DNA of 39,551 nucleotides from Clostridiales bacterium (GTDB lineage: Bacteria > Bacillota > Clostridia > Lachnospirales > Lachnospiraceae), in contig JAJBVE010000001.1 of the NCBI GenBank assembly GCA_020859995.1, positions 1-39,551 of the forward strand, written 5' to 3'. Shown here piece by piece: positions 2,364-39,551 of the stretch (its first letter is position 1; each line of letters starts with the position of its first letter). The position numbers were made by a program, and so were the translations under genes. The notes below the pieces were generated by a model, which worked only from the letters and a program-made list of their open reading frames with translations, ran no database searches and had not been told where the DNA came from.

Positions 2364-2636
2364 ATGAACCTAAACGAGGACTGGACGGCTGAAATCATTG
2401 GTCAGATGCACAAGTACCGGATCACCGGTGTACAGCTGGCAGAAGAGTGCAACAACCCGTATGGGGAGCGGTATGACAAGACCGGGTACTCTTCCGCGTA
2501 TTTGTCTATGGTGCTGAATGGGCGTAAAAAATTTGAATCCGATGAAGCAAAAGATAATACGAAACGCACGATCCAAGCAGCGCTTGACCGGATGATCGAA
2601 AAGATTAAGGGCGAGTCCGATTATGCCACACAGTAA
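2364..2636 (+). CDS. Small Cro-like DNA-binding protein
   Basis: First rightward gene after the repressor, 90 residues. The pattern ITGVQLAEECN...GYSSAYLSMVLNGRKK (about residues 20-60) fits a helix-turn-helix in which LSMVLNGRK resembles the XRE recognition helix and turn. The basic, helical C-terminus follows. The ATG at 2364 is chosen because GGAGG sits 7 nt upstream; the ATG at 2358 is too close to it. By position it could act as Cro or as an early activator; this is inference from context and fold pattern only. Confidence 0.75.
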   Translation: MNLNEDWTAEIIGQMHKYRITGVQLAEECNNPYGERYDKTGYSSAYLSMVLNGRKKFESDEAKDNTKRTIQAALDRMIEKIKGESDYATQ

Positions 2637-2784
2637 CATAGACATTTCTCAGATTCCAGAAGTGGAAGTTCGGAATTTGAGCAGCACATTTCTTGCAGCC
2701 GTCATACGCTACTACGACGACCCGGAACACCTTAAGGCATTTGAGAACTGGCAGCGTGAGAGAAAGGGGCAGAAAAACGGGTAA
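2623..2784 (+). CDS. Small early phage protein, function unknown (53 aa)
   Basis: A 53-residue acidic/basic helical protein starting MPHSNIDISQIPEVEVRN and ending KGQKNG. Its ATG lies 14 nt inside the end of the Cro-like gene, so the two are probably translationally coupled. Stop codon at 2782-2784. No domain is recognised. It has no Cys cluster or membrane segment. Confidence 0.65.
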   Translation: MPHSNIDISQIPEVEVRNLSSTFLAAVIRYYDDPEHLKAFENWQRERKGQKNG

Positions 2785-2818
2785 CTATAAAAAATGTAAA
2801 TATAAGGAGGCAAACATC

Positions 2819-3283
2819 ATGGCACAGTTATCAGTAACTATTGAGACCCCGGAACTCGCTAAGGCAATCAACCATCTGGCGGATGCCATAAGCCTTGCAA
2901 GCAAACCACAGGATTATGCGGAATCCCTCGCAGATGCAGCCACACATGCAGAGAAGGCTTTCCCCGCAAGTTCGGCTGACGGAGTATTTACAGGAACGCT
3001 TGCAACACCAGCTTCCACATCCGCTCCAGCTATTTCCACGGAAGCAGCAGCCGCAGCGCCGATGCCTGCTCCAGTGGAACAGGCTACACTACCTGCACAG
3101 ATGGACAAGGTATACACGCTGGACGAGCTTTCCACAGCGTCGGCAGACTTGATTGACAAGGGCAAGATGCAACAGATCATGAGCATTATCCAGAAGTATG
3201 GAGTTAAGGCGATTAACCAGCTTCGTCCGGATCAGTTTGCAGCATACGCGGCGGACATTAGGGGAATTGGCGCGAAAATCTGA
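2819..3283 (+). CDS. Phage protein of unknown function with Ala/Pro-rich middle (154 aa)
   Basis: Starts at ATG 2819 behind a strong AAGGAGG. There are three parts: a helical N-terminus (MAQLSVTIETPELAKAINHL), an Ala/Pro/Thr-rich low-complexity linker (about residues 45-95), and a conserved-looking C-terminal helical domain (about 100-154, YTLDELSTASADLIDKGK to IGAKI). The same kind of protein recurs directly upstream of DUF2800 genes in Clostridia phages, as far as I recall, suggesting a role in the recombination/replication set. It has no catalytic motif that I can see. Confidence 0.75.
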   Translation: MAQLSVTIETPELAKAINHLADAISLASKPQDYAESLADAATHAEKAFPASSADGVFTGTLATPASTSAPAISTEAAAAAPMPAPVEQATLPAQMDKVYTLDELSTASADLIDKGKMQQIMSIIQKYGVKAINQLRPDQFAAYAADIRGIGAKI

Positions 3284-3300
3284 GAGAGGAGGATGCGGGC

Positions 3301-4545
3301 ATGCCAACATTACACGCAAAGTGCTCCGCGTCTGCGTCCCATCGATGGATCAACTGTACAGCGGCTCCTACATATGAGATGCAATTCCCGCAGGGAGAAA
3401 CAAGCATCTATGCACGGGAGGGTACGCTGGCTCATCAGTTCGCGGAGCTAGCAGCGCAGTATAATTTTAATCTGGTCACAAAACGGACGCGGACCACACG
3501 GATCAAAAAGCTCCAGGCGGAAGAGTTGTATAACGAGGAGATGCTTAAGACATCCGAGTTTTATGCGGAGTATCTTTACCAGAAGTCAATGACGTTTCCA
3601 TCTAAGCCACATGTGGCGACAGAGGTGCGAGTGGACTTCTCCGAGTATGTACCGGAAGGATTTGGTACCTGCGACTGTATCATGATCGGCGGGAACACGC
3701 TCCACATTACAGATTACAAGCACGGGAAAGGCGTCCCGGTATCAGCGGAGAACAACTCACAGATGCGGCTTTATGCACTTGGAGCACTGAACCAGTATGC
3801 GATGATCTACGGTGAGACGATCGAAAAGGTATCCATGGCGATTGTGCAGCCGCGGATCACAGAGGATGTGAGCGAAGAGGCTTTGACGGTCGAGGAGCTC
3901 CTGGCATGGGGTGAATGGCTGAAACCGATCGCAAGGGAAGCGCAGAGTGGCCCCGGTACATTTAAGCCAGGTGAGTGGTGCAGGTTCTGTAACGGCCGCG
4001 CCGTATGCGCGGCAAGAGCACAGTATTACATGGAGCTGGAGGCATACGAAAATTCGGTACCGGAAGGGAGCCTGACACCGGAGCAGCTATTTGAGATGGA
4101 CAAGGTAGCGATCCTCCGCGGCGAGAAGCCTACAACTCTGACTGACGCCGAAGTGGGTGATTTGCTCATTCGCGGAAAGGAACTGGCAAAGTGGCTCGGT
4201 GACCTGCAGGACTATGCGCTCAATGCAATTTTGGACGGCAAAGTAATCCCAGGCTGGAAGCTTGTGGAGGGACGCAGCGATCGGAAGTTCACGGATATGG
4301 ATGCAGTGATCGAGAGGTTCAAAGTGGCCGGATATGAAGAGGCTATGCTATACGAGCGCAAGCCGAAGACCCTTACGGCACTTGAAAAGCTGATGGGGAA
4401 GAAGGATTTTGCTGAGAAGATCGGAAGTCCTGGGCAACCGGACAGTCTCGTTATGAAAGCGCCGGGGAAACCTACACTTGTGGAGGTGTCGGATAAGCGC
4501 GAGGCGTACAATTCGGCGGCGGCAGATGCTGCAGGCCTCACGTGA
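3301..4545 (+). CDS. DUF2800 protein, Cas4/RecB-like PD-(D/E)XK nuclease
   Basis: A 414-residue phage recombination-type nuclease. Motifs fit the PD-(D/E)XK fold: Glu108 in a beta strand, Asp125 in GTCDCIMIGG, then ITDYKHGKG with Asp138 and Lys140, and a downstream QMRLYALGAL helix. A cysteine group CRFC...VC (228, 231, 237), possibly with Cys19 upstream, resembles the Fe-S cluster of Cas4/AddB enzymes. DUF2800 proteins sit in phage replication/recombination modules, commonly next to a DUF2815 ssDNA-binding protein, as here. The start is the ATG at 3301 with GAGAGGAGG about 9 nt upstream. Its stop overlaps the next start by 4 nt. Confidence 0.88.
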   Translation: MPTLHAKCSASASHRWINCTAAPTYEMQFPQGETSIYAREGTLAHQFAELAAQYNFNLVTKRTRTTRIKKLQAEELYNEEMLKTSEFYAEYLYQKSMTFPSKPHVATEVRVDFSEYVPEGFGTCDCIMIGGNTLHITDYKHGKGVPVSAENNSQMRLYALGALNQYAMIYGETIEKVSMAIVQPRITEDVSEEALTVEELLAWGEWLKPIAREAQSGPGTFKPGEWCRFCNGRAVCAARAQYYMELEAYENSVPEGSLTPEQLFEMDKVAILRGEKPTTLTDAEVGDLLIRGKELAKWLGDLQDYALNAILDGKVIPGWKLVEGRSDRKFTDMDAVIERFKVAGYEEAMLYERKPKTLTALEKLMGKKDFAEKIGSPGQPDSLVMKAPGKPTLVEVSDKREAYNSAAADAAGLT

Positions 4546-4982
4546 CGTACTTGGACATACGGGAAGAACCGATAGGGCTTTTCTATCCGACAAATGATTA
4601 CAGGAGCGGTCGCATGGAACTATATTTTCCCTGCGCGCTCGACCCGAACAGAGGTCTGACCATGCAGCAGCTACGGAAGTTCTTCAAACTCTGCCTGCGA
4701 TATCAGCACGAGAGGACGGAGAATGAAAAGTCCGTGCATGAGCTGGAGCAGTATCTTGCGGATTACGTACTGGCCTGCAAGAATGCTGCCGAGAGTATGG
4801 AAGACTATCTTAAACGTAATTTGCTGGATCCGAAAAATTTCATCGACAAAGAAGAACGCAGACGCGTAAAAGAACAAAACGCAAGACTGTACAAAGAACT
4901 GAAAAATGCGGGAAAGCTCTATGAGCGTTCCATGAAGATTCTGACAATCTGGGCAGATATGAAAAAACAATATTCTATGTAA
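4542..4982 (+). CDS. Phage protein of unknown function between DUF2800 and DUF2815 (146 aa)
   Basis: A charged, largely helical protein (about residues 50-146 coiled-coil-like, Lys/Glu-rich) of no recognised family. Two starts are possible. GTG at 4542 overlaps the previous stop (GTGA) and would be coupled. ATG at 4614 begins MELYFPCALDPNRG and has AGGAG 7 nt upstream, so it may be the real start (122 residues). The gene probably belongs to the recombination/replication set, judging only by its neighbours. Confidence 0.7.
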   Translation: MTYLDIREEPIGLFYPTNDYRSGRMELYFPCALDPNRGLTMQQLRKFFKLCLRYQHERTENEKSVHELEQYLADYVLACKNAAESMEDYLKRNLLDPKNFIDKEERRRVKEQNARLYKELKNAGKLYERSMKILTIWADMKKQYSM

Positions 4983-5003
4983 ACCACGAAAGGAGATAAC
5001 GCT

Positions 5004-5654
5004 ATGTACAACAATGACCCGAAGAGAGTAGCAACTGGCGAGGTTCGCTTATCGTACGCGCATCTGAATGAGCCGTATGCAAATCCGCAGAATCCCGGCC
5101 AGAAGCCGCGCTATTCTGTTACCATGCTGATCCCGAAAACCGATACAGCGACAAAGCAGGGGATTACAGACGCTATGAATGCATCTTATGAGTACGGTGT
5201 GGAGAATAAATGGAAAGGTGCGCGGCCAAGCATGAAAAGCCCGCTGATCTATGATGGGGACGGTGTCCGCCCGAACGGGCAGCCATTTGGTCCCGAGTGT
5301 AAGGGCTGCTGGGTGATCACGGCAAGCACAGGCCGCAAGCCGCATGTCTGCGACATTAACAATCCAAACACGGAGCTCCTTCCGCAGGACGTCTATTCTG
5401 GCATGTATGCCCGCGTGACGATGAGTTTTTACAATCCTGCGCAGGGTAACCCGGTAGCCTGCTCCTTGGACAATGTCTTTAAGACCCGTGATGGCGAGCC
5501 GCTTTCCGGTGGTCCGTCCGCGATGCAGGATTATGCAGGGCTTGGTGTAACCCCGACACCCACTGGACAGACAGCGATGTATGCCAATGCGCAGGGAGCA
5601 ACGCCGGTATATCCTGTGGGTACGATCAATCCGCTTACCGGTCTTCCGATGTAA
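5004..5654 (+). CDS. DUF2815 ssDNA-binding protein (OB-fold, gp2.5-like)
   Basis: A 216-residue protein of the DUF2815 family, which is placed with OB-fold single-strand DNA-binding proteins. The conserved opening (TGEVRLSYAHLNEPY, then KPRYSVTMLIPK) and a mid-protein block of basic and aromatic residues are visible, ending in a flexible Gly/Pro/Thr-rich tail (about residues 160-216). It probably protects ssDNA during phage replication and works with the DUF2800 nuclease upstream and the polymerase downstream. Start ATG 5004 with AAAGGAGA upstream. Confidence 0.85.
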   Translation: MYNNDPKRVATGEVRLSYAHLNEPYANPQNPGQKPRYSVTMLIPKTDTATKQGITDAMNASYEYGVENKWKGARPSMKSPLIYDGDGVRPNGQPFGPECKGCWVITASTGRKPHVCDINNPNTELLPQDVYSGMYARVTMSFYNPAQGNPVACSLDNVFKTRDGEPLSGGPSAMQDYAGLGVTPTPTGQTAMYANAQGATPVYPVGTINPLTGLPM

Positions 5655-5755
5655 GCGTTCTTTGATAGACGACGCGCTCCCGAACCGGGCAACGGAAATT
5701 GAAAGTAAGCTAAGTCTATAACAGAGATGAATCCCGCACGTGTGTGCAACACAAC

Positions 5756-5792
5756 GGGAACCGGTAGAGGAGCACACGCTGAGCCGGTTCCC
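5756..5792 (+). promoter_or_regulatory. Stem-loop in the leader of the DNA polymerase gene
   Basis: A perfect 9-bp inverted repeat, GGGAACCGG (5756-5764) and CCGGTTCCC (5784-5792), with a 19-nt loop in the 162-nt gap before the polymerase gene. It ends 12 nt before the polymerase ribosome site (AGAGGAGG, 5802-5809). No T-run follows, so it is not a simple terminator; a translational or mRNA-stability role is possible. Nothing else is recognised in this gap. Confidence 0.5.
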
Positions 5793-5816
5793 AAACCACA
5801 AAGAGGAGGCGATATT

Positions 5817-7820
5817 GTGGTGCATCATTTATCAATCGACCTGGAGACTTACTCCGAGGCTCCGATCGCAAAGACAGGAGCGCAGCGGTATGTCGCAGAT
5901 CCGAGTTTCGAAATTCTTCTGTTCGCTTATTCAGTGGACGGTTCCCCGGTACAAATAATCGATATGGCACAGGGCGAGGAAGTACCCCAGGATCTTATTC
6001 GGGCACTTCACAATCCGCAATACATTAAACATGCGTATAATGCACCGTTCGAGTTTGCCTGCTTGTCAAAGTATTACAGCCCCATGAATCCGGCGCAGTG
6101 GCGGTGCACGATGTTCCACGGTCTATACTGCGGTTACACCGCAGGACTGGACGCGACGGGCAAAGCGCTGGGACTTCCGGAGGACAAGCAGAAACTGAAT
6201 ACGGGCAAGGCACTGATCCGCTACTTCTGCGTACCCTGTAAGCCTACAAAGGCCAACGGGGGCCGGACACGGAACTATCCGCATCATGACCTGGACAAGT
6301 GGAAGCTCTTTAAAGAGTATTGCTGTCAGGATGTCGTAACAGAAATGGAGATCGAGCGAAGGCTATCAGCCTTCCCCGTTCCGGATTTTGTGCAAAAGCA
6401 GTGGGAAACAGATCTGACCATCAATACCCGCGGCGTGGCGGTCGATATGCCTTTTGTGCAGGGGGCGCTGAAAATTGGTGACGAAGTACGGACGGAGCTG
6501 ATGAATGAAGCGCGGAGGATAACCGAGCTGGACAACCCAAACAGCGTCAAGCAGATCATGGATTGGATGAACAAGACGTCTGATGATGTTGAGCTGACGG
6601 ATCTCCGGAAAGACACGGTAAGTAAGATGCTACAGAATGATGACATCCCGGAAGGCAGGGATGATGTGCGGAGGATGCTGGAGATCCGGCAGGAGCTGGG
6701 AAAGACCAGTACGAAGAAGTATGACGCAATCTCCACCTGTGTTTGTCCGGACGGACGCGTGAGAGGGCTGCTGCAATTCTACGGAGCAAATCGTACGGGG
6801 CGCTGGGCGGGGCGTCTGGTGCAGGTGCAGAATCTTCCACGGACATACACAAAGGCCATTGAGACGGCGCGTACGCTTGTCAGAAGGGGCAAAAAAGACG
6901 CATTAAGGGTAATTTACGGAAGTGTACCTGATACACTTTCACAGCTCATCAGGACGGCATTTGTGGCGAGCCCCGGCAATAAGTTGGTCGATGCGGACTT
7001 CTCCGCGATAGAGGCGCGTGTGATCTCGTGGCTGGCTGGGGAAGAGTGGAGGCTGGAGGTGTTTCGGACGCACGGCAAGATCTATGAGGCGTCTGCATCA
7101 CAGATGTTTGGAGTGCCAATCGAAAAGATCAAAAAGGGCAACCCGGAATATGCGCTGCGAGCAAAAGGAAAAGTCGCGGAGCTGGCGCTTGGCTACCAAG
7201 GTAGCGCAGGGGCATTAAAAGCAATGGGCGCTTTGGATATGGGACTATCGGAAGAAGAGTTGCCAGAGATTGTAGATAAGTGGAGGACCGCAAATCCGCA
7301 CATTAAATCGTTGTGGTGGGAGATGGATGCAGCAGTGACACGGGTGATACAGACGGGTACAGCGGAACGAGTTCGGTATGTTGTGTTGGCGCGTGAATAC
7401 GATCCGGTACAGGGCGTTGATTGCTTGACTATAACGTTGCCGTCCTGCAGGAAGCTTTTTTACATCAGTCCCCAGATTGGCGAAAACCGGTTCGGTGGTA
7501 CATCTATCACTTATTTAGGGATGGACCAGAGCACAAAAAAATGGAAGCGGATCGAAACATATGGCGGGAAGCTCGTAGAGAACTGTGTCCAGGCAATCGC
7601 GCGAGATGCGTTGGCGGAAGCAATAGAGCGATTAGAAGCAGCTGGCTTTCCGATTGTATTTCATGTACATGATGAGGTCGTAATTGATATGAAGCCATTT
7701 GCTAATGACGGAGCAATGTTGAAAGCAGTAACAGATATTATGACGCAGCCGCTTACATGGGCCCCCGGACTACCGCTTGGCGCAGATGGCTGGGTGGGGG
7801 ATTTCTTTACAAAGGATTAA
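5817..7820 (+). CDS. Family A DNA polymerase with 3'-5' exonuclease domain
   Basis: Replicative phage DNA polymerase of 667 residues. The N-terminal DnaQ-like exonuclease shows SIDLETYSE (Asp8, Glu10). The polymerase domain has motif A DADFSAIEARVISW (about 392-405), motif B RAKGKVAELALGYQG, and motif C VFHVHDEVVID with HDE at about 618-620. No 5'-nuclease domain is present, as usual for this phage subgroup. The GTG at 5817 is chosen because AGAGGAGG lies 7 nt upstream and the exonuclease motif follows at once; an ATG at 5727 would add 30 residues of unlikely sequence across the stem-loop. It likely works with the VirE-family primase-helicase at 16.6 kb. Confidence 0.93.
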   Translation: MVHHLSIDLETYSEAPIAKTGAQRYVADPSFEILLFAYSVDGSPVQIIDMAQGEEVPQDLIRALHNPQYIKHAYNAPFEFACLSKYYSPMNPAQWRCTMFHGLYCGYTAGLDATGKALGLPEDKQKLNTGKALIRYFCVPCKPTKANGGRTRNYPHHDLDKWKLFKEYCCQDVVTEMEIERRLSAFPVPDFVQKQWETDLTINTRGVAVDMPFVQGALKIGDEVRTELMNEARRITELDNPNSVKQIMDWMNKTSDDVELTDLRKDTVSKMLQNDDIPEGRDDVRRMLEIRQELGKTSTKKYDAISTCVCPDGRVRGLLQFYGANRTGRWAGRLVQVQNLPRTYTKAIETARTLVRRGKKDALRVIYGSVPDTLSQLIRTAFVASPGNKLVDADFSAIEARVISWLAGEEWRLEVFRTHGKIYEASASQMFGVPIEKIKKGNPEYALRAKGKVAELALGYQGSAGALKAMGALDMGLSEEELPEIVDKWRTANPHIKSLWWEMDAAVTRVIQTGTAERVRYVVLAREYDPVQGVDCLTITLPSCRKLFYISPQIGENRFGGTSITYLGMDQSTKKWKRIETYGGKLVENCVQAIARDALAEAIERLEAAGFPIVFHVHDEVVIDMKPFANDGAMLKAVTDIMTQPLTWAPGLPLGADGWVGDFFTKD

Positions 7821-7835
7821 TAAGGAGGAGCAATT

Positions 7836-8072
7836 ATGGGAAACGAAGTTTATTCAAAATCATACTGGAACAAATTTTTTACAAAGATGGCAATGTATCT
7901 TGCAATAATTGCAATGGCCGCTATCCTGCTTGGCACTCTGGCTATGCCGGTTGTACTGTCTGTAGTCTACAGTGTTAAATGGATGTTTCTGTATCCGGTC
8001 TATCTCATTCTTTCCATTACAATTTTATGCTTTATTGGGAAATTGGAGCCTAAGGAGGACAAGAAATCGTGA
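7836..8072 (+). CDS. Small two-helix membrane protein (78 aa)
   Basis: A 78-residue protein with two hydrophobic segments (about residues 18-42 and 48-66) and a charged C-terminus EPKEDKKS. Start ATG 7836 with AAGGAGG upstream. It overlaps thyX by 4 nt (GTGA). Function unknown. A small membrane protein inside a replication operon might affect the host envelope or superinfection, but nothing shows this. Confidence 0.7.
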   Translation: MGNEVYSKSYWNKFFTKMAMYLAIIAMAAILLGTLAMPVVLSVVYSVKWMFLYPVYLILSITILCFIGKLEPKEDKKS

Positions 8073-8707
8073 AGATTATTCCTGCAAAAGTGGAGTTTAT
8101 TACCCCGATTGATGGGAATGTGGTTATGAAACGTCTGGAGGAGTGCGGACGTGTCTGCTACAAATCAGAAGATAAGATCACAGAAGACAGCGCGGAGAAA
8201 TTCCTCCGCGGCGTGATCCGACGCGGGCATGAGTCCGTCTTGGAACACTGTTTCTTTACAGTCCGGTTCACAGTAGACCGCGGTATCTCGCATGAGCTTG
8301 TGCGGCACAGGATCGCAAGCTTCTCACAAGAGAGCACCCGCTACTGCAACTACTCAAAGGACGGATTCGGCAATGAGATCACAGTGATCAAACCCTGTTT
8401 TCTGCAAGAGGATACACTTGGCTATGCAATATGGGAAAGCACTTGTGAGCACACAGAAAAATCCTATTTCGATATGTTGGGCTGTGGATGCACTCCGCAG
8501 GAGGCGCGGTCGGTGCTCCCGAACAGCCTGAAAACAGAAGTTGTTATGACCTGCAATATCCGTGAGTGGCGGCACTTTTTGCTGTTGCGCTGTTCGAAGA
8601 CGGCCCATTCGCAGATGCGCGAGGTGGCTACACAGCTACTGGAGATGGTTATGAAGGAGATGCCGGTGCTGTTTGAGGACATAGCGAAAGAGGTGTCGGA
8701 TGGATGA
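8069..8707 (+). CDS. thyX: FAD-dependent thymidylate synthase
   Basis: Makes dTMP from dUMP using methylene-tetrahydrofolate, with FAD and NADPH. The 212-residue length is normal for ThyX. The signature RHRIASFSQESTRY (79-92) is present, and upstream HESVLEH (54-60) and downstream NIREWRHFLLLR fit FAD/dUMP-binding regions of the family. The start is GTG 8069, coupled to the stop of the membrane protein gene; its own stop overlaps the next ATG. Phages carry it to supply dTMP for replication, which fits the polymerase and MazG-like genes nearby. Confidence 0.95.
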   Translation: MKIIPAKVEFITPIDGNVVMKRLEECGRVCYKSEDKITEDSAEKFLRGVIRRGHESVLEHCFFTVRFTVDRGISHELVRHRIASFSQESTRYCNYSKDGFGNEITVIKPCFLQEDTLGYAIWESTCEHTEKSYFDMLGCGCTPQEARSVLPNSLKTEVVMTCNIREWRHFLLLRCSKTAHSQMREVATQLLEMVMKEMPVLFEDIAKEVSDG

Positions 8708-9072
8708 GCAGGGCAGAGATCCGAAGGCAAAAGAGAGAGCAGGAAAAGGTAAAAACCGCTACGTATAATTTAACAAAGGCACAACTCGATCAGATGGTAA
8801 AAGATGCAATCGGGGAACAGATGGAGGAAATAAAGCAGCAGGCGACGGATGATGCGATTAATACGGCTGTGGTCCTGCTACTTACTCTTCCGCTCGAAGT
8901 GCTTATGGATCACTATTGGCCGAAGACTTATGCGAAAAAAATCCCAGAATTCACAAATTATGTTTTGCAGTATTACGAAGACTGGGAAGACGGAAAAATC
9001 GACATCGACGATTTAATTAATGATTTGTGGGAGTACGCAGGTGTAAGGCTGGAAGAAGGAGAACGGGAATGA
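8704..9072 (+). CDS. Phage protein of unknown function (122 aa)
   Basis: A helical, charged protein. A basic N-terminus (MSRAEIRRQKREQEK) is followed by a Lys/Gln-rich helix, a hydrophobic stretch (AINTAVVLLLTLPLEVLMDHYW, about residues 57-78) and an acidic C-terminal half (DWEDGKIDIDDLINDLW). Coupled to thyX through ATGA and to the next gene in the same way. Proteins with the MSRAERRR-type opening are common in Firmicute phages, but no function is known to me. Confidence 0.75.
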   Translation: MSRAEIRRQKREQEKVKTATYNLTKAQLDQMVKDAIGEQMEEIKQQATDDAINTAVVLLLTLPLEVLMDHYWPKTYAKKIPEFTNYVLQYYEDWEDGKIDIDDLINDLWEYAGVRLEEGERE

Positions 9073-9335
9073 GTAGGACACTTAATGATATGTTTAGTGA
9101 GCTTTTTGGTGGCTTGTACAGCGATATGATGAATAATAATGAGCCTCAGTACCCAAAGATCGAGATCCAATTCCGGAAAAAGGAATTTGAAGATACCTTA
9201 AATGAGATGTGGTCCAATTATGGCACGGGAAACGTAGCGCAGCTGCCAGAATACCAGAAACAGGTCAAGATCATCAAAGAAGCAGGCTGCAAGGTGCTGC
9301 GTAACTCGGCAGGAAAGCACAAGATCATCATATAG
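9069..9335 (+). CDS. Phage protein of unknown function (88 aa)
   Basis: Starts MSRTLNDMFSELFGGL at ATG 9069, overlapping the previous stop; AGAAGGAG lies upstream. It has a C-terminal basic segment (IIKEAGCKVLRNSAGKHKII) that could bind nucleic acid. No family recognised. Confidence 0.7.
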   Translation: MSRTLNDMFSELFGGLYSDMMNNNEPQYPKIEIQFRKKEFEDTLNEMWSNYGTGNVAQLPEYQKQVKIIKEAGCKVLRNSAGKHKIII

Positions 9336-9345
9336 GAGGCAGAGC

Positions 9346-9618
9346 ATGAAAAGAGCAGAGGTATTAAAGCAGGCAGAAGTATGTGTTTGTGGTAAGAGGG
9401 AGCAGGACTACGGAAATCCGGAGGATAATTTCAACCAGATCGCGCTGCTGTGGAGTGCTTATATGGGGCACAGCTACACGGCGCAGGATGTGGCAATGAT
9501 GATGGCGCTGTTGAAAGTGGCGCGGATCAAGACAGGCACAGGAACAACAGACAGCTTTGTGGATCTGGCCGGGTACGCGGCCTGTGCAGGTGAGATTACT
9601 ACAGAAAAGGGGCGGTGA
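9346..9618 (+). CDS. DUF6378 phage protein
   Basis: A 90-residue protein matching the DUF6378 pattern: REQDYGNPEDNFNQIALLWSAY, then YTAQDVAMMMALLKVARI and DSFVDLAGYAA. The all-helical layout with conserved Glu/Asp on helices resembles MazG-like nucleotide pyrophosphohydrolases, so a role in nucleotide handling is possible but unproven. Ribosome site AGGAGG at 9332-9337, ATG 9346. Confidence 0.8.
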   Translation: MKRAEVLKQAEVCVCGKREQDYGNPEDNFNQIALLWSAYMGHSYTAQDVAMMMALLKVARIKTGTGTTDSFVDLAGYAACAGEITTEKGR

Positions 9619-9765: not shown

Positions 9766-10203
9766 ATGACAGGATGTATTGATTCTTTTATGGGAAGCTA
9801 TTATTTTCTCAGCAACTACTATCCCTGCCCGGTAAGATATAAAGGCCTTCGGTTTTTAAGCTCGGAAGCTGCCTATCAGGCACAGAAAAGTGCGTCTGAC
9901 AGTGTCCGTCAGATGTTCGTCGGGCTTACACCAGACGAAGCAAAGGCATTGGGGAACCAGGTAAATGCCCGCTCGGACTGGGATACTGCAAAGATCGCAG
10001 TGATGCATGACGTCGTGCGCGAGAAGTTCTGGCAGAATTCGGCGCTTGCAATCCTGCTGGATAATACCGGTGATGAAATACTTAAAGAGGGCAATGACTG
10101 GGGAGACACATTCTGGGGCGTGGACAGTACAACAGGGGAAGGACAGAACCAGCTTGGTATCATCCTGATGCAGATCCGAAACGAGCTGCGGCAGGCAAAG
10201 TAG
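9766..10203 (+). CDS. NADAR-domain protein (YbiA-like)
   Basis: A 145-residue single-domain NADAR protein. Family hallmarks are visible: FMGSYYFLSNYYPCPV (about 7-22), the SSEAAYQAQKSA block (31-43), the ARSDWDTAKIAVMHDVVREKF region (68-88) and the C-terminal DTFWGVDSTTGEGQNQLGIILM (about 113-134). Established work shows NADAR proteins act on ADP-ribose derivatives: YbiA/RibX-type enzymes cleave riboflavin intermediates, and others remove ADP-ribose from guanine in DNA. Phage NADAR proteins have been reported to counter DarT-type defence. A similar counter-defence role, or protection from the phage's own ART-like proteins at 23-25 kb, is inference. Confidence 0.9.
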   Translation: MTGCIDSFMGSYYFLSNYYPCPVRYKGLRFLSSEAAYQAQKSASDSVRQMFVGLTPDEAKALGNQVNARSDWDTAKIAVMHDVVREKFWQNSALAILLDNTGDEILKEGNDWGDTFWGVDSTTGEGQNQLGIILMQIRNELRQAK

Positions 10204-10217
10204 GAGGAGCAGAGTGT

Positions 10218-10904
10218 ATGTTTGCAAAAAAAAAGGAACTGGACACTGACGCCATAACCCGCCTTGCGAACGGGATCGTAGTGCAGGCTGCAGATGATTA
10301 CCGGAGGGCTCTTAAGGTGCTTAAGATACAGCCACGCGACTACAGGACGCGGCTTACATGGGAAAGAGCACTCGCAGATAAGCAAGAGGTTGAGAGGTTC
10401 TTCCGCTCGCAGTGGTACCAGATGCTAAGCAGTATTGATGGCGAGTATATGATCAGACGGCTGTGCAACGAGCTGAAATTTAAAATGGAGGACGAGGATA
10501 TGGACAGTATGTATCACGCATGCAGATGGTGCCGGAACTACGAAAAAGGGAAGTGCATGTGCGACAAAATTGATGAACCGGAGAGCACAGCGGTCGATTA
10601 TGTGTTTGATGTGGCAGAGTCCGGACAGCTTTCGGAAGTGTTGGAAGAAAGCTTACATAGCGCGGATCAGCAGGCTTTTAAGGATACACTGCGTGTAAAG
10701 CTCATTGACTGGAAAATATCGGGAAAGCATATAACAGAATTTACGGAGCTGTTCGATGAGTGCATGATGGAATTTCTGGATACAAAGTGTAAACCGCTCT
10801 GTGATGAGAATGTCTCCCGACTGTATCAGCATATGCCAGAGCCGGAGAGCAAAGGCGCGATAATAAAGGACCCAGAAGAGTTCTGCTGCAAATATTTTGA
10901 GTAG
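10218..10904 (+). CDS. Phage protein of unknown function with a Cys cluster (228 aa)
   Basis: A helical charged protein. The N-terminal part (MFAKKKELDTDAITRLANGIV, then a basic helix with ...RRALKVL) resembles small phage early proteins. A cysteine patch CRWCRNYEKGKCMC (about residues 102-115) may bind metal, and more Cys are near the end (CKPLCDEN, FCCKYFE). Start ATG 10218 behind TAGGAGGAG. No function can be assigned. Confidence 0.75.
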   Translation: MFAKKKELDTDAITRLANGIVVQAADDYRRALKVLKIQPRDYRTRLTWERALADKQEVERFFRSQWYQMLSSIDGEYMIRRLCNELKFKMEDEDMDSMYHACRWCRNYEKGKCMCDKIDEPESTAVDYVFDVAESGQLSEVLEESLHSADQQAFKDTLRVKLIDWKISGKHITEFTELFDECMMEFLDTKCKPLCDENVSRLYQHMPEPESKGAIIKDPEEFCCKYFE

Positions 10905-10916: not shown

Positions 10917-11501
10917 ATGAAATTACAGGATCTTGTTTTACCTGTGGCTATTCATTGCAAAAATGAGAAAGAAGCAGAAATATTTTGTAATCATCTGTCA
11001 GAAATTGGAAGGTCCGCCGGATATGTAATCCAGTTTATGGAGTACGAGGAAAACCTGTGTTATTACATAGAAGATAATGTGTACGGCAATATACTGTATG
11101 GCGATGTAGAAACGGCCAAAGAAGAAGGACTTAAAATTGTAGAATTTTCCGATCTGGATTATGAAAAACCTGTGACTTATAAATACGGGCAGATGCTTAT
11201 TTCAAATCAAGACACGGAGATAGAGAATTTCCCAGGTATTGTTTTTAAGATTCACAAAGGCAACAGAGTTGTTGTTGGCTTCGATGGACTGGCGCACCAT
11301 ATGGAAAGTGGTTACGCACAGCCATTCGAAGATGGCATAAGCATAGAGGGATATTCGCACACAGGTGTTGTGGCGATGGTATGGAAGTATCTTAACCAGT
11401 ATCTCCCTATGGAAAAGATGCTGGAAGATTACGGCCTAAAGCCAAAAGACATAACGGATGTGATCAAAAAAGCGCTGGCAGAGATTGGCCTGCACGAGTA
11501 G
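10917..11501 (+). CDS. Phage protein of unknown function, related at its N-terminus to the 13.0-kb gene (194 aa)
   Basis: Starts MKLQDLVLPVAIHCKNEKEA. Residues 10-90 show the same order of features as the protein at 13010: xxIHCxxExEAxxxxxHL, a tyrosine-rich middle, then EFSDL. The two are probably diverged paralogues with different C-terminal halves; here the C-terminal half ends in a helical LKPKDITDVIKKALAEIG. Function unknown. ATG 10917 behind TAGGAGGGA. Confidence 0.75.
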   Translation: MKLQDLVLPVAIHCKNEKEAEIFCNHLSEIGRSAGYVIQFMEYEENLCYYIEDNVYGNILYGDVETAKEEGLKIVEFSDLDYEKPVTYKYGQMLISNQDTEIENFPGIVFKIHKGNRVVVGFDGLAHHMESGYAQPFEDGISIEGYSHTGVVAMVWKYLNQYLPMEKMLEDYGLKPKDITDVIKKALAEIGLHE

Positions 11502-11514: not shown

Positions 11515-12048
11515 ATGAGAATAAAGCGAACGATAGGAATTAAAACTGATGAGTATATGATCGGAGCTGTTATAGCATTTAAGCTGAAAACGGGCGAGAA
11601 AGTACAGGCAATGGCAATGGAGCGAATCGGAAACAGTACGCTGTTCCTACTTGTGGACTGCCTTAATGATGAGGCTCAAATGAACGCCACAAACACTACT
11701 GAGGGCGGATACGAAAAATCTGATTTACGTAAATGGCTGAACAAAGAAGTATTGAGCCAGTTCCCGACTAAAATTAGAAAACGGATGGTTCAACTCGAAA
11801 ATGGAGACTATCTTTCGATTCCTGCAAAGGCAAATATTTTTGGAACAGCTGATAAAGAATGCTGGGAGCCAATGAAGAAGCGCCGTAACCGAATTGCATA
11901 TCATGGAAAAGACGAAGAGCTCGAATGGTATTGGCTGCGGGATGTTGTTTCGGCGTCTGGCTTTGCGAATGTCAGCAACAACGGCAATGCGAGCTACGGC
12001 AGCGCGTCCGGCGTCAATGGTGTGCGCCCGTTTTTCTTAATCTCATAA
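11515..12048 (+). CDS. DUF6273-like protein with a DGR-like variable C-terminus (177 aa)
   Basis: The C-terminal half has the DUF6273 layout: SDLRKWLN (about 64-71), a mid segment with EWYWLRDV (about 141-148), and a terminal GVRPFF (169-174). Residues 154-168 are built mostly from Ser, Asn, Gly and Tyr encoded by AGC, AAC/AAT, GGC and TAC codons. This is the set produced when adenines of AAC codons in a template repeat are mutated, as in diversity-generating retroelement variable proteins. An 8-bp stem, 4-nt loop hairpin starts 4 nt after the stop. ATG 11515 has GGAGG 9 nt upstream. No reverse transcriptase or template repeat is visible in the window, so the DGR role is inference. Confidence 0.75.
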   Translation: MRIKRTIGIKTDEYMIGAVIAFKLKTGEKVQAMAMERIGNSTLFLLVDCLNDEAQMNATNTTEGGYEKSDLRKWLNKEVLSQFPTKIRKRMVQLENGDYLSIPAKANIFGTADKECWEPMKKRRNRIAYHGKDEELEWYWLRDVVSASGFANVSNNGNASYGSASGVNGVRPFFLIS

Positions 12049-12051
12049 TCC

Positions 12052-12071
12052 CCCGCCCCTTTAGGGGCGGG
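12052..12071 (+). promoter_or_regulatory. GC-rich 8-bp hairpin with 4-nt loop after the variable-region gene
   Basis: CCCGCCCC (12052-12059), loop TTTA (12060-12063), GGGGCGGG (12064-12071). The next bases are TTAGAGCGG, with no T-run, so it is a poor Rho-independent terminator. In studied DGRs (phage BPP-1) a hairpin/cruciform with an 8-bp stem and 4-nt loop just downstream of the variable region is needed for efficient target recognition. Size and place match that element. Confidence 0.65.
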
Positions 12072-12122
12072 TTAGAGCGGTTACAAAAATGCGAATAAGA
12101 AGGAAGGAGCAGATAAAGCAAA

Positions 12123-13009: not shown

Positions 13010-13804
13010 ATGAAATTTAAAGAGAACGCGATTAAGCCGGGCATGGTAATCCACTGTCCGACAGAAGAGGATGCGAGGGCGTTGTCAGAACATTTGATAA
13101 AACTCGGAGTAGCTAACGCAAATCATATCATGGAATACTATGGATTGAATAATGGCGTTGGAAAAACAGACACGGTATGGATAAAACAGAAAGAGGGATA
13201 TTTGACTGTAGAGTATAGCGACAGAAAATGGTACGAAAAAGACGAATATCAAATGGAAATCACCGAATTTTCCGACCTGATTGAGTCTGATTTAAGTAAT
13301 GCGGAAATCGAAGAAAAAGAATGGGAGAAATTCTGTGAAGAAGAAAAACAATCTGGAATGAGCGCGGAAGAGGCAATGGACTGGTTGTGGGAAAATGTAC
13401 AGAAAAAAGATGTATTATACAGCGTATTTGAGCAAGACTGCGATATGCAAAGCATATTTGTAAAGTACACTCCAGAAGAAATCGTACTGAAAATCGGACA
13501 GTACGAAGCCGAAAAGAAAACGCCGAAGCCTGTAGAGGTTGAGTATGGATGGTGCTGTGAAATATTTTGGGTTGGCGAAACCGGATGGGAACCGATTGAC
13601 GATGAAGAAGTCTGGGGTGTAGATGAAAACGCAGCCAAAGACCATGCGGCGGAAATGGCTCGAAGATTTATTACCTACCATGTAGCAGACAAACAGTATA
13701 TTTCTGGTTGTAAAGAACAGAGAGAAGCGGTGAAAAACGCTCTGGAAGATGGTAAGACTGTATCATATCGGGTATTTGGTATCTGCCGCGCAAAGGAGGG
13801 CTAA
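13010..13804 (+). CDS. Phage protein of unknown function, paralogue-like to the 10.9-kb gene (264 aa)
   Basis: N-terminal half: KPGMVIHCPTEEDARALSEHL, a Tyr-rich middle and ITEFSDL, matching the layout of the 10917 gene. C-terminal half: acidic linker with EEKEWEKFCEEEKQSGMSAEEAMD, then VEYGWCCEIFWVGETGW and a ...VSYRVFGICRAKEG end that may form a small beta domain. Start ATG 13010 behind AGGAGGGC. No enzymatic motif recognised. Confidence 0.75.
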   Translation: MKFKENAIKPGMVIHCPTEEDARALSEHLIKLGVANANHIMEYYGLNNGVGKTDTVWIKQKEGYLTVEYSDRKWYEKDEYQMEITEFSDLIESDLSNAEIEEKEWEKFCEEEKQSGMSAEEAMDWLWENVQKKDVLYSVFEQDCDMQSIFVKYTPEEIVLKIGQYEAEKKTPKPVEVEYGWCCEIFWVGETGWEPIDDEEVWGVDENAAKDHAAEMARRFITYHVADKQYISGCKEQREAVKNALEDGKTVSYRVFGICRAKEG

Positions 13805-16131: not shown

Positions 16132-16170
16132 TTGAAAAGTTAAGAAAATTTAACTATAATAAGTTCAGTC
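16132..16170 (+). promoter_or_regulatory. Second early promoter with repressor-like operator motifs
   Basis: TTGAAA (16132-16137), 17-nt spacer, TATAAT (16155-16160). The spacer plus edge form the palindromic AGTTAAGAAAATTTAACT (16138-16155), and GTTCAGTC follows at 16163-16170. These resemble the operator repeats around the 2164 promoter. Just upstream is a weak A/T hairpin AGCAAAA-N4-TTTTGCT (16109-16126). Likely drives the primase-helicase operon, perhaps under the CI-like repressor. Confidence 0.75.
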
Positions 16171-16205
16171 AAATATTATAAACTATAAAAGAAAGGAGAC
16201 TTGCG

Positions 16206-18988: not shown

Positions 18989-19525
18989 CAGGACACGGGG
19001 TTTTGGAAAAACTTTTGAAAATTGAGGTTTTAGGACGAATGTTACAAGATTACACGGTATCCCGAAACTTTTTAAAAATTGAGAAAACAGGCAGGAAATT
19101 CTGTAAACACGGTTGCCGATTTTGTAAACAGGGACGACAACCGTGTTTACAGAGAAATCGGAGGTTGTAAACAGGGTGTAAACAAGAGCTGTTTACGCTT
19201 AAAACCGCTAAACTAAAGGCTTTTTTGACTCTGTAAACAATAAAACAATAAAAAGTAAAGGCAATAAAAAATAGAGAAATAAAGAGTATAATACCCGCCT
19301 ATGCGCCCAAACGCATACGCGTATATAGGGGTACCATAATTGTGTTGACGCTGTTGACAGGGCACCGGCTTTAAATGACTGGAATGCTTTTAGCTCCAAG
19401 TCATTTAATCGATGGTTGGTTAATGATGTGGTAACGTGGCAATTAAGCTGTGAGCAAAAGACGGCGAAAAATGAACGCACTTTACGCGCAGCCGCGCGAA
19501 CGGAAATTTTTGGAGGTTTGGAAAG
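18989..19525 (+). other. Non-coding repeat region, candidate replication origin
   Basis: No credible gene in 537 nt. Contents: a direct repeat AAACTTTTGAAAATTGAG (19009-19026) and its near copy (19065-19083). Six TGTAAAC copies lie at 19102, 19123, 19145 (reverse), 19166, 19177 and 19232, plus one variant at 19191 (reverse). A perfect 15-bp inverted repeat occupies 19101-19115 and 19138-19152, and a second 7-bp pair CCGATTT/AAATCGG (19116-19122, 19155-19161) interlocks with it pseudoknot-fashion. An A-rich stretch (19235-19285) follows, then a 10-bp hairpin (19371-19380/19399-19408). Iterons beside an AT-rich tract next to the primase-helicase suggest an origin; operator use is an alternative. 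Confidence 0.6.
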
Positions 19526-35520: not shown

Positions 35521-36071
35521 TCTGGGAACTTCCTGACAGTCTGATGATAAACGGGACGGAAAGGGCAATCCGGACGGATTTTCGGGATATTCTGAAAATC
35601 CTTGTGGCGTTTGAGGATCCGGATCTGGAACCGGAGGAAAAAGAGTACATCTGCCTGTACATCCTGTATGCAGACTATGACGATATACCAAAAGAGGATT
35701 ATGCAGCCGCCTATAAGGCGGCTATTTCATTTATCGACAACGGAGCAGAGAATGACACGCCTTCTCCGCGGACGATGGACTGGGAGCAGGACGCAAATAT
35801 CCTGTTTCCGGCAGTGAACCGTGTTGCCGGGTTCGAGGTGCGGTCCGTGGAGTACCTGCACTGGTGGACCTTTACCGGGTACTTTCTGGAAATCCGGGAC
35901 AGCGTTTACGCGAATGTCCTAAGCATCCGGCAGAAGAAAGCAAAAGGGAAAAAACTGGAGAAGTGGGAAAAGGAATTCTGGAACACAAATAAAAAAATAT
36001 GCGTCCTGAACGCAAAGCTTACCGAGGAGGAAAAGGCTGAAAAAGACCAGTTGAAAGCTTTACTCGGGTAG
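35517..36071 (+). CDS. Gp15-family tail assembly chaperone
   Basis: A 184-residue Phage_Gp15 protein: MIWELPDSLMINGTERAIRTDFRDILKIL, a YADYDDIPKEDYAAAYKAAISFID helix, and the VRSVEYLHWWTFTGYFLEIRDSVYANVLSIRQKKAKGKKLEKWEKEF block. It fills the place of gpGT in other siphoviruses. It starts at its own ATG; a frameshift from the previous gene is unlikely because a TAA lies in this frame at 35499-35501. Confidence 0.9.
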   Translation: MIWELPDSLMINGTERAIRTDFRDILKILVAFEDPDLEPEEKEYICLYILYADYDDIPKEDYAAAYKAAISFIDNGAENDTPSPRTMDWEQDANILFPAVNRVAGFEVRSVEYLHWWTFTGYFLEIRDSVYANVLSIRQKKAKGKKLEKWEKEFWNTNKKICVLNAKLTEEEKAEKDQLKALLG

Positions 36072-36090
36072 TGGGAATGGGGTGAAATAT

Positions 36091-39000
36091 ATGGCTGGAA
36101 ATAGCTCGGATGGTTCCATCACACTTGATACTAAAATGGATAACAACGGCTTTAAAAAAGGATCACAGGAACTGTTAACTGCTATCAAATCCCTTAGCCA
36201 GCAGATTGATCAGCTGGGGAAAAACCTGCAGTCTGCATTTACCGGCTACGGGAAAACAGCCGAAAACTCCAATGCAAAAATGCGGCAGGTTGACAGTTCT
36301 GTCCGCCAGACACAAAAGTCCGTAAGTTCCCTTAGCAGGGATATCAATAAGCTGGGGGCAGATATCGACAGGATGGGATCCACGGCCGAAGCTGCGATCA
36401 GCGGCGATGAAAAAGCCATTGATAAATTCACGGAGCAGTCCGGAGCTGCTGACGAGAAAATCGCACAGCTGCGCGATGACCTTGCGGAATTTGGCAACAC
36501 AGAATTTGAAACGGAAGATTATACATGGCTGAACCAGCAGATTGAAAAAACAGAGGCGACTCTGGACAAGCTGCTGGAGAAGCAGGACAAGATGCAGGCT
36601 ATGGGCGCTGACCAGTCATCGAAGTCATGGCAGACTTTGCAGTATGATATTGAGCAGACAAGCGGTCAGCTTGACTCATACAAGACGAAGCTTGCAGAAA
36701 TGCAGCAAGGCGGCATGAACCATTTCAAGGCGGAAGAATATCAGGGCGTTACTCAGCAGATTGAGCAAGCGGAGAATGCCCTGAACAAGCTGCTTACAAA
36801 ACAACAGCAGATGGAAGATACCGGGGTTAAGACAAGCTCAAAGGCCTGGAAAAATCTGGAATACAGCATTGAACAGGCACGACTTCGTCTCAATACATAT
36901 AAATCTGACCGCGACGAGATGGATGCATCTGGTGTTACGCAGGCCGAAGCGAATCAGTACCTGCAGTTGGAGCAGCAGATTGAAAAGACGCAGGCAACAC
37001 TGGATAAGCTGCGCGAAAAAGAAACAAAGATGCAGGCCACAGGCGGCGACCAGGAATCAAAGTCATGGCAGAGCCTGCAGTACGATATCCAGCAGACGAC
37101 ACAGCAGCTGGAGGCATACAAGACGGAACGTGCAGAAATGGAAGCCTCCGGGGAATCCCATTATACGGGTGCGGATACGAATGAGTTTACGCAGGCCGAA
37201 GCGGATCTTAACTCTTACGAGGCGTCCCTGCAGCAGATGGAGACAGAGGTAGGACAAGCTACACAGTATCAGAGCAGGTTTACGATTGCAACAAATGCTG
37301 CAAAAATTGCTCTGGCGGGGCTCGCCTCAAAACTTGGCGGCGCTGTTTTTTCGGGTCTCCGCTCAGTAGCCAGCGCTGCAAAATCAGCGGCATCGAGCCT
37401 TGCTTCCATGGTGGGGAGCGGGATTAAAAGAGGGCTGACCAGCATCGTTTCTGGTGCGAAAAAGGCCACATCTGCGCTGCTGGGATTAAATAAATCGAAT
37501 AAATCACTAAATGGAAGCATGAGTGGCGGATTTAAGACGATTCTGAAATATGGTCTTGGAATCCGTTCCCTGTATGTCCTGTTTAATAAATTACGGAGCG
37601 CAATCACAGAAGGTTTTGAGTCACTGGCGCAGGAATCCACGTCAGTAAACTCTGCAATATCCTCCATGAAATCCGCACTCTCGACGCTGAAAAACAGTCT
37701 GACATCGGCATTTGCTCCGATTGTGACAGCCGTAGCACCGGCTATCACATACCTGATCAACCTGTTAAGCAACGCGATTTCGTACATCAGCATGTTTATT
37801 GCAGCGCTTACGGGGCAATCAACGTACATGAAAGCGACAGCGGTACAGGAGGACTACGCCGCAGGTTTAAGCGACACGGCGAGCTCTGCAAGTGATGCGG
37901 CTGATGCGGTCGAAGACCTTAACCGGCAGACAGCAGGTTTTGATGATCTGGAGATCCTTTCTGACTCGTCCAGCAGTTCAGATAGCGGCTCGGGCGGTGG
38001 AAGCGGGAGCGGTTCCGATGCATCCGATCTTTGGGAAGAGGTCGCTATTGACAGCTCCATCATTGACTGGATCGGCCAGATCAAAGAGATGTTCGCAAAC
38101 GGCGATTATGAAGCCATCGGGGAAGTCATCGCGGAGGGAATTAATACAGCATTCGCAAAGGTAAAAGAGCTGATCGCTTGGGATAATGTCGGGGATGTTA
38201 TCACTGAATATGTTGATGCATTCTGCCGGATTTTTAACAGCCTGGTAGATAACATTGACTGGGATCTAATCGGCAGCACATTTGCGGAGGGCATCAATAC
38301 AGTCCTGCATACAGTAGATTTGCTTTTAACCGGTATAGACTGGTCGGGGCTCGGGACAGCGCTTTCTGACGGGCTGAACGGTCTTGCGCGGGATGTAGAC
38401 TGGGATTTACTCGGTAAAACGATCGGGGATTATTTCTCCGCGCGTCTGGAGCTCATCACATCCGCGATAATTGGCTTCAACTGGGTAGATGCAGGAGCAC
38501 GATTATCGGAGGGGATTAATTCTCTGGTGGATACGCTGCAGGAGACGATCAACGACATCAGCTGGACAAATATCGGATTGAGGTTTGCCTTTGGTTTGAA
38601 TTCTCTGATATCCGATATCAGCTGGTCAGATATTGGTGCTTTATTGGGCTCATATTTTAACAGCGTTTTAGATGTTATTTACGGTGCTGTTACCGGTTTT
38701 GACTGGGGGGCCGCAGGCTCTGCATTTGCAAGTGGCGTAAACGGGCTGATCGATAAGATAGACTGGGTTACACTGGGAAAAACGATCAGCACTGCGGTGA
38801 AAGGTGCTCTGGACAGCATCGGAACCGCGATTGCGGAAATAGACTGGTGGCAGCTCGGAGAAGATATAAAGACCTGTCTTGTAAACATTGACTGGGCGGG
38901 TATTGTGCAATCACTAGCTACGGCCTTTGGTAACGCACTTGGTGGCCTTGGCGCCCTGATCGGCGGGCTGCTCGGGGATGCATTTACTGGCATAGAGACA

Positions 39001-39551
39001 TATTTTGCAGACCAGATTGATGCGGCAGGCGGAAACGTTGCGCAGGGTATCCTGAACGGCATCGTGAACGGCTTAAAGAATATTGGCACATGGATTGTAG
39101 ACAATATTTTCACACCGTTCATCGAGGGATTCAAAAGTGTATTTGGCATCGCTTCCCCGTCGACCGTCATGGAAGAGCAGGGCGGGTATCTGATTCAGGG
39201 CTTGCTGGAGGGCATCATCAGCTGGATGAGCAATATCGGTACATGGCTGTATGAACATATTCTGCAGCCGATTATTTCATGGTTCAATGAAACATTTGTC
39301 GAGCCGATTGGGGAGTTTATCGTTGGCGTAAAAAACACTGCATCCGAATGGTGGAGCAACACTAAGAGCTGGTGGAGCGAAAAAGTCGGTGACGTCAAAG
39401 AATTCACTACGAATGTGTCTAATGATGCAAAGACATGGTGGAAAAACACAAAAACGTGGTGGAAAAAGAAAGTCGATAACGTACAGGAATTCACTACAGC
39501 TGTAAAAGACCAAGCAACCACATGGTGGAACAATACGAAGTCATACTGGAA
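36091..39551 (+). CDS. Tape measure protein, C-terminus beyond the window
   Basis: Sets tail length and passes through the tail tube. At least 1153 codons are open to the window end. N-terminal part: coiled coil with three exact-length 73-residue tandem repeats (144-362). Then Ala/Ser-rich helices (about 390-600) with a hydrophobic stretch around TIATNAAKIALAGLA, a Gly/Ser linker SSSDSGSGGGSGSGS, a set of I(D/S)W..(I/L)G units spaced about 35-45 residues, and finally 29-residue Trp-rich repeats. GGGGTGA lies 8 nt before ATG 36091. Confidence 0.9.
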   Translation, partial: MAGNSSDGSITLDTKMDNNGFKKGSQELLTAIKSLSQQIDQLGKNLQSAFTGYGKTAENSNAKMRQVDSSVRQTQKSVSSLSRDINKLGADIDRMGSTAEAAISGDEKAIDKFTEQSGAADEKIAQLRDDLAEFGNTEFETEDYTWLNQQIEKTEATLDKLLEKQDKMQAMGADQSSKSWQTLQYDIEQTSGQLDSYKTKLAEMQQGGMNHFKAEEYQGVTQQIEQAENALNKLLTKQQQMEDTGVKTSSKAWKNLEYSIEQARLRLNTYKSDRDEMDASGVTQAEANQYLQLEQQIEKTQATLDKLREKETKMQATGGDQESKSWQSLQYDIQQTTQQLEAYKTERAEMEASGESHYTGADTNEFTQAEADLNSYEASLQQMETEVGQATQYQSRFTIATNAAKIALAGLASKLGGAVFSGLRSVASAAKSAASSLASMVGSGIKRGLTSIVSGAKKATSALLGLNKSNKSLNGSMSGGFKTILKYGLGIRSLYVLFNKLRSAITEGFESLAQESTSVNSAISSMKSALSTLKNSLTSAFAPIVTAVAPAITYLINLLSNAISYISMFIAALTGQSTYMKATAVQEDYAAGLSDTASSASDAADAVEDLNRQTAGFDDLEILSDSSSSSDSGSGGGSGSGSDASDLWEEVAIDSSIIDWIGQIKEMFANGDYEAIGEVIAEGINTAFAKVKELIAWDNVGDVITEYVDAFCRIFNSLVDNIDWDLIGSTFAEGINTVLHTVDLLLTGIDWSGLGTALSDGLNGLARDVDWDLLGKTIGDYFSARLELITSAIIGFNWVDAGARLSEGINSLVDTLQETINDISWTNIGLRFAFGLNSLISDISWSDIGALLGSYFNSVLDVIYGAVTGFDWGAAGSAFASGVNGLIDKIDWVTLGKTISTAVKGALDSIGTAIAEIDWWQLGEDIKTCLVNIDWAGIVQSLATAFGNALGGLGALIGGLLGDAFTGIETYFADQIDAAGGNVAQGILNGIVNGLKNIGTWIVDNIFTPFIEGFKSVFGIASPSTVMEEQGGYLIQGLLEGIISWMSNIGTWLYEHILQPIISWFNETFVEPIGEFIVGVKNTASEWWSNTKSWWSEKVGDVKEFTTNVSNDAKTWWKNTKTWWKKKVDNVQEFTTAVKDQATTWWNNTKSYW
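36520..37176 (+). repeat. Three tandem 219-bp repeats in the tape measure gene
   Basis: Units 36520-36738, 36739-36957 and 36958-37176, each coding 73 residues. Shared frame: Y...QQIE(K/Q)(T/A)(E/Q)(A/N)(T/A)L(D/N)KL, then K(M/Q)(Q/E), S(S/E)K(S/A)W(Q/K)(T/N/S)L(Q/E)Y, then (Q)L..YK(T/S)..(A/D)EM. A decayed fourth unit starts at about 37177. Such unit gain or loss changes tail length in known phages. Confidence 0.85.
39349..39551 (+). repeat. 87-bp tandem repeats coding Trp-rich 29-residue units, cut by the window end
   Basis: TGGTGG-starting units at 39349, 39436 and 39523 (spacing 87 each; the third is cut off). Protein unit: WW(S/K)NTK(S/T)WW..KV..V(K/Q)EFTT.V......T. The first two differ in many bases though the frame is kept, so the duplication is not recent. 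Confidence 0.8.

Follow-up and report, generated by a model that had tools for sequence, protein, structure and literature searches.

An early gene of a Clostridiales prophage is very probably a remote second target of the prophage's own diversity-generating retroelement

A 39,551-nt contig of a Clostridiales bacterium (assembly GCA_020859995.1, contig JAJBVE010000001.1; hereafter the window) carries, in its early phage region, a gene whose 3' end resembles the variable repeat (VR) of a diversity-generating retroelement (DGR), and the question that this locus raises is which element, if any, rewrites it. The initial annotation, made from the letters of the window, saw in this gene (hereafter the early gene) a DGR variable region with neither a reverse transcriptase (RT) nor a template repeat (TR) nearby, and left it as either served from elsewhere, by a host or downstream DGR, or stranded. 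The window is the entire contig C12 of a 4.4-Mb draft genome in 239 contigs, and we searched its VR against that genome. Two further strong matches were obtained, both of them next to an RT on contig C126, and a 32-nt pattern allowing up to 3 mismatches found three copies of the repeat only in the whole genome (Table 1; labels C, G and L with a number are our own handles).

The mismatches between these copies have the signature of a DGR. Over 104 aligned nt, the VR at the 3' end of the early gene differs from the TR at 10 positions, and 10/10 fall on template adenines (P=1.9e-7, with 25 A per 100 template nt). One of them, at 12031, is common to the window and tail VRs and is probably a fixed difference between the initiation of mutagenic homing (IMH) end and its template counterpart (IMH*); omitting it leaves 9/9 at adenines (P=7.6e-7). 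The AAC-derived codons that had been claimed from the window are real when read against the TR: codons 149, 154, 160, 162, 163, and 166 are AAC in the TR and GGC or AGC in the early gene, and codon 173 is ATT in the TR and TTT in the window VR. Similarly, 18/18 mismatches between the tail VR (VR1) and the TR lie at template adenines, as do 14/14 of the differences, 14 per 100 nt, between VR1 and the window VR. On C126 the order is tape-measure end, large tail gene, tail target with VR1, Avd-like gene, TR, and RT, the last with the two motifs listed in Table 1, which we take to be marks of DGR RTs. The whole-genome search proposed in the initial annotation therefore did find a near-copy with adenine mismatches next to an RT; the absence of an RT and a TR holds for the window alone and not for the assembly. 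Neither a genome lacking both parts nor evenly spread substitutions was found, and the suggestion of a downstream DGR proved right, with TR, RT, Avd-like gene, and tail VR all on C126. We conclude that the early gene is very probably a DGR target.

Table 1. Features of the early target and of the DGR that would serve it (window coordinates unless C126 is given)
Feature	Position	Strand	Remarks
Early-region DGR target gene	11515..12048	+	177 aa, DUF6273; PF19789, phrog_21980
Variable repeat (VR)	11932..12035	+	codons 140-173 of 177; matches TR at C126:8904-9007
VR 3' end, IMH-like	12018..12035	+	GC-rich stretch then Ts; TR ATTTT vs TTTTT in both VRs
GC hairpin	12052..12071	+	CCCGCCCC-TTTA-GGGGCGGG; 8-bp stem, 4-nt loop TTTA, no T-run
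Tape-measure gene	36055..39549	+	open-ended, terminal tandem repeat; phrog_1535, E=8.6e-54
Tail target gene with VR1	C126:7411-8232; VR 8104-8219		DUF6273 just under cut-off
Avd-like gene	C126:8315-8869		phrog_3206 Avd, E=8.1e-7; no Pfam family above cut-off
Template repeat (TR)	C126:8892-9007		
DGR-type RT	C126:9055-10263		402 aa, open frame; PF00078 48.4 bits; IGNQTSQ and YMDD

A single prophage was probably split between the window and C126, the break lying within a repeat of the tape-measure gene. The tandem repeat that closes the tape-measure frame of the window resembles one that opens C126, and at E<=0.001 this repeat has matches in the genome only at these two contig ends. Further, a single record, Acutalibacter phage Fontainebleau, holds the same order in one piece: early target, terminase, tape measure, tail target, a small gene at the Avd position, TR, RT, and lysis genes. 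Because of the shared tape-measure repeat and the Fontainebleau order, early VR and template probably lie in one prophage; if the contigs are joined, at least 36 kb separate them (27.5 kb up to the end of the window and a further 8.9 kb on C126). A contig break can thus conceal a DGR, so that a served target looks orphaned. A repeated element, whose longest pair spans 205 bp with 36 mismatches, stands at window positions 19155-19359, 16132-16198, and 2140-2202 and at L017 14838-15138, and its presence in both window and C126 hints further at a single phage. We also note a partial tRNA (Rfam, 32.8 bits) at window positions 1-49, at the contig start, as a possible attachment site; an Rfam scan of the window gave no other match.

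Other RTs of the genome were rejected as the source. Contig C205 (L162) carries a second, unrelated DGR (RT frame 5580-6743 on the minus strand, TR 6884-6957, VR 7541-7614; 14/15 TR/VR mismatches at adenines), which has its own TR/VR and no match to the window VR. The RTs of C150 (QGGILSP, YADD) and C21 resemble, by eye and judged without a family search, those of group II introns. Because C126 supplies TR and RT and these others were rejected, no host DGR working from another locus needs to be invoked.

The two target genes end in the same cassette. The hairpin behind the early gene was described correctly as to stem, loop size, and lack of a T-run; it begins 3 nt after the stop codon (not 4 nt), and the protein ends in GVRPFFLIS and not in GVRP. 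The same hairpin stands behind the tail VR and is absent behind the TR, and positions 12036-12072, 37 nt beyond the TR homology that include the hairpin, are identical in the window and tail VRs, after which similarity drops (the following 30 nt contain 12 mismatches). This identity implies that the cassette was probably transplanted once. As shown by Guo et al. 2011 (PMC3240598, in the passages available to us), IMH plus hairpin suffices to put a foreign gene under homing in phage BPP-1, and the early-gene cassette therefore resembles a transplant of this kind made in nature. The hairpin agrees with the BPP-1 cruciform in size and place but not in loop sequence. Among the relatives described below, a GC hairpin lies within 60 nt downstream of 38/40 listed VRs (one entered twice) and of 0/22 TR entries (18 phages, some entered twice), compared with 4.7% of 3,400 random 60-mers; stricter hairpins (stem >=6, >=5 GC) follow 26/40 VRs, 0/22 TR entries, and 1.4% of controls. 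The loop is TTTA in the window, and it is 5 nt long and begins with C in 35 of the 38 hairpin-bearing VRs listed.

We propose that RNA of the TR would be copied by the adjoining RT together with the Avd-like protein, with random bases inserted at adenines during copying, and that the cDNA would replace the 3' end of the tail gene (VR1) and likewise that of the early gene. The early VR would be recognized via its GC-rich 3' end and GC hairpin, the identical cassette ending both genes; homing into the early VR is thus deduced from these sequences. Overall, we hold with high confidence that the early gene is a remote second target of the DGR of its own prophage, neither stranded nor lacking an RT.

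Next, the same layout recurs in relatives. Among 397 genomes of the family, we found a homologue of the early gene (E<=1e-10) in 10, the window genome included, and a relative of the RT (E<=1e-20) in 22; 8/10 genomes with the early gene were RT-positive compared with 14/387 without it (p=9.5e-10). Seven pairs of early gene and RT in other genomes lie on a single contig and the same strand, ~24 to 51 kb apart. Of the 12 sets compared first, 11 have a single TR that matches the early gene as well as a tail VR, G136 being the exception. The early gene is also present in 29 viral records, 12 of which have an RT match; it is a VR in 11/11 of the RT-bearing records with a TR in view (several duplicates), the TR of G411 being out of view, and the 17/29 without an RT match are mostly fragments. 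Taking 18 non-duplicate phage or prophage sets together, the window included, 291/303 mismatches of 21 early VRs and 284/298 mismatches of 18 tail VRs fall at template adenines, counts to be read with the fact that the pair script discards any pair with <75% of its mismatches at A and so favours DGR pairs; the counts omit the duplicates G397, G409, G400, and G401 as well as G411, and keep both G149 and G247/C10, which are mutually close. Non-DGR repeat pairs in the same loci, among the matches listed in an unfiltered listing, have mismatches spread over the bases.

Individual sets varied in what could be seen. G135 has a distal VR with 13/13 mismatches at A; G220 is truncated by the contig end; the pair in G247/C10 (51 nt, 12/12 at A) was detected only below the first length limit; and G192, a 5.7-kb contig with masked bases, has no RT match. 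Three phages (G247/C5, G315, and G420) have two early targets. Two early VRs per phage, with mismatches nearly all at adenines, were seen at L058 7923-10423, L057 8071-10602, and L101 7531-10530; in L057 and L058 each early target is followed by a gene clustering with a DUF6353 protein, as if the pair had been duplicated jointly. The early targets L063 8956-9834 and L066 9136-10002 extend beyond the VR by a charged, coiled-coil-like tail of 90-100 aa. Finally, 30 phage records have an RT match, and we scanned 11 of them for VRs (Lelie and Dulem 37 to base 50,000 only). A distal second VR was present in 7/11 (Fontainebleau, Shimadzu, Lelie, nd12, Dulem 37, Dulem 34, and MT835491), whereas MT835543, MT835569, MT835552, and MT835664 are counter-examples with a single VR; both targets of Dulem 37 resemble the FGE/CalU17 type, slightly under the cut-off, and not DUF6273.

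To see this segment change, one has to turn to near-clonal relatives. The IMG/VR contigs L091, L093, L096, and L098 are nearly identical over columns 2625-9570: of 6,887 columns there that lie outside the VR, 7 vary, while the homologous early VR contains 22 variable columns in 59 nt, 22/22 of them at TR adenines (P=1.8e-17). The reference TR is that of the close prophage G247, as the four contigs do not hold theirs, and against it all four also have two fixed T>C differences; columns 1-2624 were excluded as a two-allele mosaic (146/175 variable columns). The homologous early VR is thus recently diversified in near-clonal relatives, and the expectation that variation across strains would be limited to the VR stood for relatives, no further strain of the window prophage itself having been found.

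Distal second VRs are already in print, one of them apparently in a homologue of the early gene. Orf43 of Roseburia phage Shimadzu (LR596903) is a homologue of the early gene (29% over residues 16-148), is likewise early, adjoining an Erf recombinase, and has a VR with 15/15 mismatches at adenines of a TR that also feeds the tail fibre; unlike the window prophage, Shimadzu is of myophage type. Passages of PMC11792537 report phages with two VRs and two diversified Shimadzu proteins, one a tail protein and one without known function, and orf43 would be the latter. In four species of gut prophage, according to passages of PMC12629997, a second VR lies, as in the window, distal to the RT; it is near counter-defence genes and is tied to a phage-host arms race, which hints at the counter-defence idea, and the four species are treated, in those passages, without a family-wide comparison. 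The pairs nd4/nd12 and Lelie/CP11 (PMC10743442 and PMC11792537, as far as their available passages go) have, as here, a single TR that feeds two DUF6273 targets, which in those phages are C-type lectins, and our scans recovered the distal VRs of nd12 and Lelie. The first target of nd4/nd12 is described there as a tentaclin; the early protein, with 177 aa and DUF6273 only, lacks the tentaclin arrangement of an N-terminal C-type lectin domain followed by Ig-like domains. BPP-1 (PMC3240598, same limit) shares the adenine rule, the VR at the gene 3' end, and an 8-bp/4-nt GC hairpin near the stop, and differs in its loop consensus (GRNA compared with TTTA) and in that the window target is remote, a second target. 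The family-wide layout, the loop variant, and near-clonal change in an early target were not found stated in the passages of open-licence literature available to us.

What the early protein does is a more tentative matter. As proposed from the window, it is DUF6273-like (55.5 bits for PF19789, against a cut-off of 23.5), and this is its sole Pfam family above cut-off. DGR targets systematically have a C-type lectin fold around the VR (PMC8144416, in the part available). An AF2 model of the protein (pLDDT 71, pTM 0.73) gave fold matches; with Foldseek by itself, no PDB entry matched at E<=0.001 (best 9qa6, 2.3e-3). A hydropathy scan showed no membrane or signal-like segment (maximum KD19 1.04), and such segments are absent in 12/12 early proteins. 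In two of three synteny groups the early gene adjoins DNA polymerase/helicase genes or methylase and recombinase genes, and the distal target of phage nd12 (L119 31285-32178) is a fusion with DUF3310 N-terminal to DUF6273, the DUF3310-like motif having been noted in PMC10743442 itself. Tentatively, the early protein may be a cytosolic lectin-fold binder whose variable loop would track a partner inside the cell that itself varies, for instance a factor of host defence or a protein of a competing prophage. The available passages on nd4/nd12 and Lelie/CP11, unlike this reading, take the second targets as receptor binders or leave them open.

With respect to the neighbourhood of the early gene, the MazG-like gene predicted downstream is annotated by PHROG as a pyrophosphatase (MazG-like), and the flanking paralogue pair (10917-11501 and 13010-13804) shows weak similarity, with 27% across 74 aa at E=0.001. 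The neighbours 10218-10901, 10917-11498, and 13010-13801 had no Pfam family match, and an NCBIfam search with four proteins gave no match for three and, for the fourth, RT matches that all fell below cut-off. A NADAR-domain gene (PF08719, 89 bits; 9766-10203) lies in the early region ~1.3 kb upstream of the DGR target, and the adjacent trio 22905-23312, 23342-24088, and 24294-25085 has a common N-terminal motif, MGGRG(S).

Several observations weigh against the picture of a remote, cytosolic second target. First, the join of C12 to C126 is one that we infer, and no second strain of the window prophage was found with masked-TR patterns in viral and genome contigs, nor any viral contig with the window protein alone as query. 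Second, the TTTA loop lies outside the consensus given in passages of PMC3240598 (4-nt loop GRNA, GC stem of 7-10 bp), so that stem and loop size fit the BPP-1 type and loop sequence does not. Third, among relatives, the RT of G136 is interrupted by an in-frame stop and its TR was not found, two viral records of >50 kb carry the early gene but lack an RT match, G402 (16/20 at A) and G414 (19/22 at A) are less pure, and G130 and G264 are related DGRs with a tail VR alone. Finally, the putative function is argued from location, absence of an export-like segment, and one fusion, and in synteny group II the early gene stands by DUF6353 and cell-wall hydrolase genes and not by replication genes.

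The strongest competing explanation, which we consider somewhat unlikely, is that the early product is a virion part, a tail or capsid accessory lectin diversified for receptor or mucus binding, as supposed for the second targets of nd4/nd12 in passages of PMC10743442. The C-type lectin fold expected of DGR targets would suit such a role, and early and tail VRs are alike in residue mix. Within groups, the two VRs of one phage are also slightly more alike than expected (0.39 vs 0.33, P=0.003; mutated sites only, P=0.057); by column, 155/413 positions are the same compared with 138.8 expected (P=0.034), and a context-only null that ignores position gives 338/791 compared with 257 expected, an excess that we regard as weak. 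In contrast, the early gene lies tens of kb off the tail module and, in synteny groups I and III, is surrounded by early genes, its protein is without the N-terminal part of the tail target, and the nd12 copy has DUF3310.

The same excess of similarity, together with a single template feeding both targets, could suit a superinfection-exclusion or self-recognition factor that, in the lysogen, binds either the tail tip or the ligand recognized by it. We think this improbable: an export-like segment is absent, the similarity is weak and loses significance on mutated sites alone, and 14 sites separate the window VR from the tail VR. Decay of a formerly served VR, the stranded target of the initial annotation, would agree with the lack of observed strain variation in the window prophage, but it is very improbable, as the RT is open, the TR is present, the 3' end and hairpin are intact and identical to those of the tail VR, no mismatch falls outside adenines, and in near-clonal phages the corresponding early VR is changing. 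Least credible of all is a one-time copy of the tail VR by ordinary recombination, never written by the DGR, for which the 37 identical nt beyond the TR homology could speak, but against which stand the different sets of adenine changes in the two VRs and the independent recent change in relatives.

Phage DGRs are mostly explained by tail-tip tropism switching. A remote target that is homologous across phage types, lies off the tail genes, lacks any export-like segment in the hydropathy scan, and is still rewritten suggests that hypervariation pays for a possibly intracellular protein as well, and makes the binding partner of the early protein a testable question. We raise, as a possibility about as tentative as the cytosolic reading, that early, cytosolic binders written by a DGR form a conserved class in clostridial gut phages, with one template serving both the tail tip, for the cell surface, and an intracellular counter-defence binder tens of kb away. 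If this is true, an intracellular lectin-fold protein would, by being continually rewritten, track the fast-changing proteins of host defence or of rival phages.
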